DNA from: Lachnospiraceae bacterium
Lineage (GTDB): Bacteria; Bacillota; Clostridia; Lachnospirales; Lachnospiraceae
DNA length: 60,231 nucleotides
Assembly (NCBI GenBank): GCA_017482485.1
Contig: JAFUMV010000027.1
Span: 1 to 60,231, forward strand
Direction of reading: 5' to 3'
The notes beneath the pieces were generated by a model. The model worked only from the letters and a program-made list of their open reading frames with translations, did no database searches and was not told where the DNA came from. The first letter of the stretch is position 1; every line of letters begins with the position of its first letter. The translations under genes were made by a program, and so were the position numbers. Positions 10,896-60,231 of this stretch are shown piece after piece.

Positions 10896-11134
10896 GGGGT
10901 ATATGAAGATTTTTTTCGCAGAAATACCCCGTTTCACCATAATTTCCCTCTAATAAGCTGTACGAAAGGGTATACACAGAAAAAGTTGAATGAAATGCCC
11001 CGCTTTGTGGAGAGAAACAGGGTATTTCAAGCGTGTTTGGTGCTATATACCCTTATGGTTGACGTAAAGTTATGGAGGAATAACTTTATGTTAACTGGAT
11101 GGGGCATTTGGGCATAATTTGCTTGTATATACCC
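10896..11134. repeat. Four-hairpin interspersed element, copy 1
   Basis: Four units of 33-35 bp, each beginning GGG(G)TATAT/TATAC and ending GAAATRCCC(C): 10896-10930 (+), 10968-11001 (+), 11020-11052 (-), 11101-11134 (-). Unit ends are complementary (GGGGTAT with ATACCCC), so each can form a hairpin of up to 7 bp; the unit interiors are not conserved. The same architecture occurs at 21573-21799. A lone left end (CGGGTATATAG) lies at 10822. Confidence 0.85.
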
Positions 11135-11177
11135 TGGCAAGCGAAAAATGTGAGCTGTTAGGGGGAAGGAGTGGTAG

Positions 11178-11305
11178 GTAGGTCGCTGTTTCGCGCAGAA
11201 GGCGCGAAAAGCGCTCTGAGCGTCGAACGTTGGAGTGGCGTGTAGGTCGCTGTTTCGCGCGGAAGGCGCGAAAAGCGCTCTGAGTGTCAGGCGGGGGAGT
11301 GGCGT
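11178..11305. repeat. Two tandem 64-bp GC-rich repeats
   Basis: 11178-11241 and 11242-11305 both start GTAGGTCGCTGTTTCGCGC and end GGAGTGGCGT, with a few substitutions between. Each has an internal hairpin (TTTCGCGC with GCGCGAAA). The core GGCGCGAAAAGCGC (11201 and 11265) also occurs at 2169 between grpE and dnaK. Confidence 0.9.
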
Positions 11306-21524: not shown

Positions 21525-21572
21525 CAAAAAATAAAGAAAAATACAGCCGCATATGATTCAGGCTGCAGTGCC

Positions 21573-21799
21573 GGGGTATATACAGATCTTTCCTTCTGAA
21601 ATACCCCAAAATGGCGTGTTTTGTTTGGATATGAAGCTTTCAGGGGTATATACATTTAAATTTCTCAGAAATACCCCATATTTAGATGTTTTTCGGGGTA
21701 TTTTCTGGAAACTGGGTTCCATATGCCCTTTTCCATGCATTGTTAATCGCTTTTTGCATGAAATCAGGGTATTTCTGATAGTTTTGATCGTATATACCC
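21573..21799. repeat. Four-hairpin interspersed element, copy 2
   Basis: Units at 21573-21607 (+), 21643-21677 (+), 21695-21728 (-) and 21767-21799 (-), each 33-35 bp with ends GGGGTATATAC and GAAATACCCC or the reverse complement. Start-to-start distances are 70, 52 and 72, against 72, 52 and 81 in copy 1. Interiors and spacers differ from copy 1, so conservation is of architecture and unit ends. Confidence 0.87.
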
Positions 21800-21863
21800 T
21801 GGAAGAGATAAACGGAACCGTTGCCCGATGAAATAATTTTTTTGAAAAAATTTAAAAAAAAGC

Positions 21864-60090: not shown

Positions 60091-60231
60091 GTGCGCCTGG
60101 CGGCGCACGTTTCTAACGGGTGCAAGTCCCGAATCCGCCCTAGTAGTGGGAAGGGTATAGCCAAGACCAAGGGTGTCGTAGGCGACTGCGAATCTGAAGG
60201 AAGGTGGAGGCAAATCTCTGGTCTGACGAAC
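60091..60231 (+). mobile_element. 5' end of a group II intron, cut by window edge
   Basis: Begins GTGCGCC with complement GGCGCAC, the group II 5' consensus (GUGYG), and continues with domain I-like sequence (GTGCAAGTCCCGAATC, AAGGGTGTCGTAGGCGACT). Inserted directly after the hsp20 terminator, the usual target of class C introns, though class cannot be set from this fragment. Confidence 0.75.

Follow-up and report, generated by a model that had tools for sequence, protein, structure and literature searches.

Between positions 10897 and 11134 of the window (the whole 60,231-bp stretch of Lachnospiraceae DNA analyzed here), four short units are arranged in the order ++--, two direct followed by two inverted, and the same order recurs at 21574–21799. 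The arrangement poses a question: is such an element a noncoding RNA of four hairpins, a mobile repeat, or a set of sites for a protein? All of these readings had been raised in a first-pass annotation that described the two copies. Both copies were found as described, and the phenomenon proved larger than that description. The host is a gut bacterium.

Layout of the Two Elements in the Window

Each element spans about 230 bp and holds four units in ++-- order, separated by linkers of 38 (or 48), 19, and 38 (or 48) bp. The 33-bp unit is an inverted pair of GGGTATWT half-sites with 17 bp of AT-rich DNA between them; its ends read GGGTATAT at one side and the reverse complement of GGGTATTT at the other, and the 17-bp interior is often A-rich toward one side and T-rich toward the other. 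The units of copy 1 lie at 10897..10929 (plus strand, ends GGGTATAT and AAATACCC), 10968..11000 (plus, ends GGGTATAC and AAATGCCC), 11020..11052 (minus), and 11102..11134 (minus); a GGGCAT half-site stands at one end of units 2 and 4. The third linker of this copy (11053..11101) is long, at 49 bp vs. the usual 38 bp, the extra length being about one helical turn. It contains an accessory word, TTATGTTAACT, on the plus strand at 11086..11096, 5 bp outside unit 4, and the same word is present inside or adjoining a few further arrays. In copy 2, the units occupy 21574..21606 and 21644..21676 (plus) and 21696..21728 and 21767..21799 (minus), with GGGCAT as one half-site of the third. This copy (21538..21814, minus strand) is a member of the genome’s main sequence subfamily, its better matches to other copies being 75–82% identical. 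Start-to-start distances between units are 71/52/82 in copy 1 and 70/52/71 in copy 2; the near-identity of spacing claimed at first pass holds, while the figures then given (72/52/81 and 70/52/72) needed correction.

Two neighboring features of the window may be recorded here. A GC-rich repeat of roughly 64 bp, in two near-identical tandem copies, adjoins copy 1 (about 11170–11300), and the window’s end cuts through a group II intron (Rfam RF02001), whose opening portion lies at 60176–60231.

Abundance and Spacing in the Host Genome

The pattern GGGTATN{18,26}ATACCC had 93 matches in the 3.48-Mb host genome vs. 2 for a reversed control. The gap was exactly 21 in 87 of the 93, and the control for GGGTAT-N21-ATACCC had no match at all. 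When all inverted 6-mer pairs with gaps of 6–44 were ranked over 287 kb of the host, this same pair came first, with 15 units on 5 contigs. The identical scan of two congeners, covering 400 kb in G009 and 366 kb in G011, yielded no pair with a count above 4 and hence no sign there of this geometry built on other half-sites. The repeat pattern in the host genome is not a product of chance.

Merging the pattern matches and BLAST matches by hand gave about 45 places in the host genome, all intergenic, some of them partial or at contig ends; further copies beyond the original two thus exist in number. Linkers are of the class 37–40/18–20/37–40 in 17 of the 19 four-unit arrays of this genome. In copy 1 and in one other array (L009), the third linker is 10–11 bp longer, again about one helical turn.

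Spacing was also examined more widely, by counting linkers of 15–52 bp at loci from ten genomes; stretches such as L081, L083, L084, L085, L090, L095, and L098, and likewise L099, L105, L108, L111, L116, and L117, fall outside this count. Fully 179 of 186 linkers fell into classes of 17–20, 36–40, or 47–50 bp (109 of 113 without the host genome), a count in which some loci came from a scan that demanded 18–39 bp for one linker, those of G062, G070, and G076 came from single-unit lists free of that limit, and the unit finder slightly favored 33 bp. The steps between classes are near two and one helical turns, and linkers near 28 bp are almost absent. Phasing is therefore not simply a matter of each helical turn; more than phase is constrained. 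The constraint on spacing proposed at first pass was borne out, linker lengths being narrow and free spacing not being seen.

Occurrence in Other Lachnospiraceae

How widely does this geometry occur? The first-pass annotation had recommended a search of the host genome and its relatives. In a family-wide survey using a pattern that demanded 33-bp units, 6 of 397 Lachnospiraceae genomes were positive, the host included (5 of the 320 genomes with completeness of 90% or more and contamination of 5% or less). The unit pattern was found in none of 12 congeners, two of which are only 58% and 68% complete, and viral contigs gave no match to a two-unit pattern.

A scan of a species genome collection for two neighboring units returned 37 stretches, 31 of which were titled Lachnospiraceae; three (L092, L096, and L102) were excluded as short tandem repeats or non-Lachnospiraceae sequence. 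In 18 of the genomes from that scan, single units numbered 3–50 per genome vs. 0–4 for the control; in one of them, G061, the count (3 units vs. 4 control) was not above the control. Complete or partial arrays with linkers of 36–40 or 47–50 bp beside linkers of 18–20 bp are present in G062, G066, G069, G070, G073, G074, and G076, and four-unit arrays in these genomes are mostly ++-- where orientation could be called. Two genomes, G068 and G078, carry tandem arrays of mostly direct units with linkers mostly of 48–50 bp, and certain others have tandem arrays with a period of 51–52 bp; arrays reach about 10 units.

The geometry thus recurs in several other Lachnospiraceae, with a linker similarity that is small but not nil: G068 and G078 aside, array DNA from different genomes shows weak matches over up to 87 bp at 69–80% identity. 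Given these weak matches, together with shared descent within a genome, the likeness in geometry may be due in part to common ancestry, and a common origin of the arrays across genomes is possible.

Two further observations concern individual loci. In one genome, two loci (L099 and L117) share DNA that is 86–92% identical and have 51-bp arrays that differ in unit number, with a second tandem repeat adjoining. In three genomes, a gene taken for comEC on the basis of its sequence and neighbors has an array either immediately downstream or a few genes away (L098:18–567, L108:223–562, and L090:269–421).

Half-Sites Are Conserved at Orthologous Places

Are the half-sites maintained in place? The genomes of two related species, G068 and G078, allowed the question to be addressed with 12 orthologous array pairs. 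Perfect units of one species served as the reference against which the other was scored. These pairs represent 12 of 18 loci in G078; the remaining six were without a clear, complete, or separate partner. Half-sites had changed at 1 of 306 positions, compared with 52 of 452 in interiors, 77 of 856 in linkers, and 358 of 3198 in flanks, so that interiors (11.5%) and flanks (11.2%) change at similar rates. The Fisher p values for half-sites were 2e-11 against interiors, 8e-10 against linkers, and 6e-14 against flanks. Scoring in the reverse direction gave 0 of 288, 47 of 420, 65 of 803, and 402 of 3290, respectively.

Where these six-letter words stood outside perfect units, 12 of 114 positions differed; for flanking G/C and A/T sites, the figures were 12.7% and 10.2%, respectively. 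One pair, L236/L247, appears to be non-homologous at its first unit; this pair contributes 14 of the interior differences and none of those in half-sites. The half-sites are nearly unchanged when compared with interiors and flanks, and we therefore conclude that they have been selected in place in G068 and G078. This evidence comes mostly from direct-tandem arrays. That for the ++-- form is weaker and consists of the paralogue figure: among 19 host copies, half-sites are 96% and interiors 86% identical to the consensus.

Protein Sites or Hairpins?

Selection on the half-sites could in principle act through base-paired structure, in a noncoding RNA of four hairpins or in a DNA cruciform. Fold energy favors RNA: the RNA folds of both window copies were more stable than all 200 shuffles (z of -4.5 and -5.6). 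A low fold energy is, however, what similar sites standing in inverted order should give. When only unit interiors were shuffled, the outcome was mixed; units from other genomes folded slightly better than their shuffled versions (mean z of -0.53 and -0.43); this slight advantage is unexplained.

The half-sites themselves tell against pairing. At position 4, the one stem position that varies in the host, T stands on both sides in 66 of 100 host units and C on one side in 30 of 100, while C on both sides was never seen. In nine other genomes, the corresponding counts were 162, 8, and 1 of 180. Across positions 1 to 6, agreement between the two halves is close to the level expected if they varied independently, and position 7, the base after the stem, is unpaired in 94 of 100 host units. 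Unit interiors are mostly unpaired. Within an element, unit 1 resembles unit 4, and unit 2 resembles unit 3, no more closely than when the partners are drawn from different elements. The arrays sit between divergent genes too. A search of the window against Rfam at gathering score retrieved only tRNA and the group II intron fragment, with no match over either array; with permissive settings, the region around copy 1 yielded a single match, far under its cut-off (18.8 vs. 200 bits).

The search for compensating changes advised in the first-pass annotation therefore found none, either at half-sites in the host genome or between paired units. Because the host half-sites do not covary, RNA hairpins are very unlikely, and we rejected them as the main reading on the half-site covariation count and the re-pairing test. 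The competing proposal, selection on protein binding at the half-site (then given as GGGGTAT), is well supported by the orthologue conservation and the half-site counts.

Spread as a Repeat

An alternative is that the element is mobile but non-autonomous, its four units being recognized by a transposase provided from elsewhere and conserved on account of mobility. Several observations are in keeping with movement. The main subfamily has about 35 BLAST-matching places in the host (34 down to an E value of 4.7e-5, plus one more). In 13 of 19 copies, an end word, GTTCAGCCTTT, with at most 2 mismatches stands on the left side of unit 1, at a distance of 22–35 bp in 11 of them; in 4 of the 19, its reverse complement stands on the right side of unit 4, at 67–71 bp. 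The conserved part of this subfamily extends past the outer units and measures roughly 320–380 bp where both end words were found. At the glnA/tRNA-Gln locus, which is about 420 bp wide with copy 2 in the host, the two sides are 10–81 bp apart in 5 of 11 matching congeners (G005–G009); of the other six, spacers are longer in three (267, 487, and 1293 bp), the locus is rearranged in one, and in two the retrieved locus showed a single side. The sporadic distribution of arrays across genomes also fits mobility. Finally, G069 has three copies that are 95–97% identical over 384–439 bp, a likeness that suggests recent spread; assembly may play a part, as two of the three begin contigs with the same bases. 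In these loci (L093, L097, and L113), the array lies within a roughly 390-bp stretch. A further observation is that the outer left end of the subfamily is itself tandemly repeated at L056, left of position 1501.

Mobility accounts less well for the persistence of the sites. A dead insertion should decay evenly, and yet the orthologous loci keep the half-sites alone. No target-site duplication is visible by eye in 12-base flanks, although the ends of the element are not sharply defined, and no transposase is among the families shown for neighboring genes. Some genomes, moreover, carry units in tandem, up to about 10 per array, and not one fixed element. The partial copies L069, L070, L071, L072, L073, and L074 were inspected for an autonomous parent transposon and gave no support to one; they seem shortened or near contig ends and do not look like the termini of something longer.

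The arrays resemble miniature mobile repeats (MITEs) in being dispersed, short, and intergenic, in having imperfect inverted ends in some copies, and in being absent from related species. They differ in keeping half-sites at orthologous loci, in having no parent element in view, and in a geometry common to genomes with little common sequence. Taken as a full explanation, the mobile element appears rather unlikely. In part, however, the mobile repeat proposed at first pass is supported: copies have spread in the host genome and their half-sites have then been kept, so that movement would bear on how the copies multiplied and not on why the sites persist.

Gene Context

If the arrays controlled particular genes, one might look for a common theme in their surroundings. 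Among 78 array-like clusters, 56 have a gene on both sides, of which 34 pairs are co-directional, 11 convergent, and 11 divergent. No stop-to-stop frame of at least 250 codons spans any of 78 arrays from ten genomes. The neighbors are ordinary and varied, including genes for tRNA synthetases, a sigma factor, glutamine synthetase, and transporters, and some match no known family. No shared theme emerged from the 25 commonest of 171 families among 128 flanking proteins, nor from the 40 of 58 flanking host proteins that were scanned singly, 7 of which had no family match. The lack of pattern in surrounding genes and their orientations makes a chromosome-organizing or insulating task likelier than control of particular genes.

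Comparison with Known Systems

The nearest resemblance in sequence is to the operators of CsoR-type metal sensors. In PMC3902906, the consensus of the type 2 CsoR operator is given as ATATACCCCTNAGGGGTATAT, with ATACCC and GGGTAT most conserved; the half-site word and the adjoining G-tract are thus held in common with the arrays. That operator is ATACCC-N5-GGGTAT, whereas the units are GGGTAT-N21-ATACCC and the linkers from ATACCC to GGGTAT are mostly 18–20, 36–40, or 47–50 bp. A CsoR-family gene (PF02583) was not found in five of the ten array genomes, which are drafts (the host, G062, G069, G070, and G074); the remaining five have one each. Membership among CsoR operators was rejected on spacing and order and on the failure to find the gene in half of the array genomes, and that the units are CsoR operators strikes us as extremely improbable. 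In G076, the CsoR-family gene has a shorter pair, GGGTAT-N18-ATACCC, some 200 bp away (G076:C56:76512–76541).

The accessory word near some units raises another candidate, namely sites for a Xer recombinase or other accessory machinery. When up to one mismatch was allowed, TTATGTWAACT was counted 9 times in the 29.6 kb made up of arrays and their margins vs. 32 times in 376.6 kb of surroundings, and it is present in the third linker of 4 of 17 elements. Five of the nine hits are 4–5 bp from a unit. In the form TTATGTWAAC(T/C), the word is found in linkers at L001:1697–1707 (window 11086–11096), L009, L002, L037, and L094. The word resembles a XerD arm. Most copies, however, are without it, and no complete dif-like site was present, the best of all loci having 7 mismatches in 28 to the dif consensus. 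A role for such machinery seems highly improbable.

Bacterial interspersed mosaic elements (BIMEs) are clusters of REP palindromes associated with RAYT transposases. Like them, the arrays consist of short palindromic units (about 35 bp), recur between genes at dozens of places, and are grouped with a set orientation and regular spacing. They depart from them in having half-sites of the protein type without covarying stems, in the ++-- order, and in phased linkers. Many clustered intergenic copies were indeed found, as for REPs and BIMEs. The gene for the REP-associated Y1 transposase (PF01797) was not found in the host (90% complete), G062, G066, G076, or G078, while the other five of the ten array genomes have 1–2 matches. 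Membership in the REP/RAYT system fails on the failure to find this gene in the host and four other array genomes and on the lack of excess agreement between halves.

Noc sites in Bacillus and SlmA sites in E. coli are palindromic protein sites present in dozens of copies and unrelated to neighboring genes. The arrays are similarly dispersed over the chromosome, palindromic, and indifferent to their neighbors; they differ in having half-site centers 27 bp apart, a strict multi-site geometry, and a sporadic occurrence. We know of no resemblance in sequence to Noc or SlmA sites. Dispersed clusters under selection, as would suit a system of this kind, were found, with the selection located in G068 and G078 and the binding of a dimer being presumed. 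The wide operators of NikR and BirA have inverted half-sites some two to three helical turns apart and serve one or a few promoters. They are like the units in their inverted, widely separated pair; the arrays, by contrast, put four units at about 45 places. The openly licensed literature that was searched held no description of such four-site arrays, in agreement with the first-pass annotation, whose author had known of no matching family.

A Model for the Arrays

What, then, are the arrays? We favor the view that they are phased, double-stranded sites for a putative dimeric protein, which spread as a repeat and were then selected; on the evidence of geometry and half-site conservation, this account is probable. 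The 33-bp unit would be the site for a dimeric (or larger) sequence-specific protein that contacts the inverted GGGTATWT half-sites, with centers about 27 bp apart, over an AT-rich and probably bent center. The fixed, roughly helically phased units may let bound proteins meet and fold the approximately 230 bp into a two-fold symmetric complex. The task that we infer would be chromosome-organizing or insulating more than the control of particular genes. Many of the host copies would have spread as a short repeat of roughly 320–380 bp and then been kept by selection.

Intergenic repeats of bacteria are mostly explained as hairpins or as dead mobile DNA. In these arrays, orthologous loci conserve their half-sites at the level of single bases, and spacing is confined to narrow classes, which is what a protein complex with several sites would lead one to expect. 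We suggest tentatively, as a possibility that we would not yet call probable, that they belong to an undescribed chromosome-organizing system of some Lachnospiraceae, in which a protein that is gained horizontally or often lost would bundle phased four-site arrays that a mobile repeat seeds and selection keeps. Since the arrays occur sporadically, relatives that carry them can be set directly against relatives that do not, in a search for the protein and its task.
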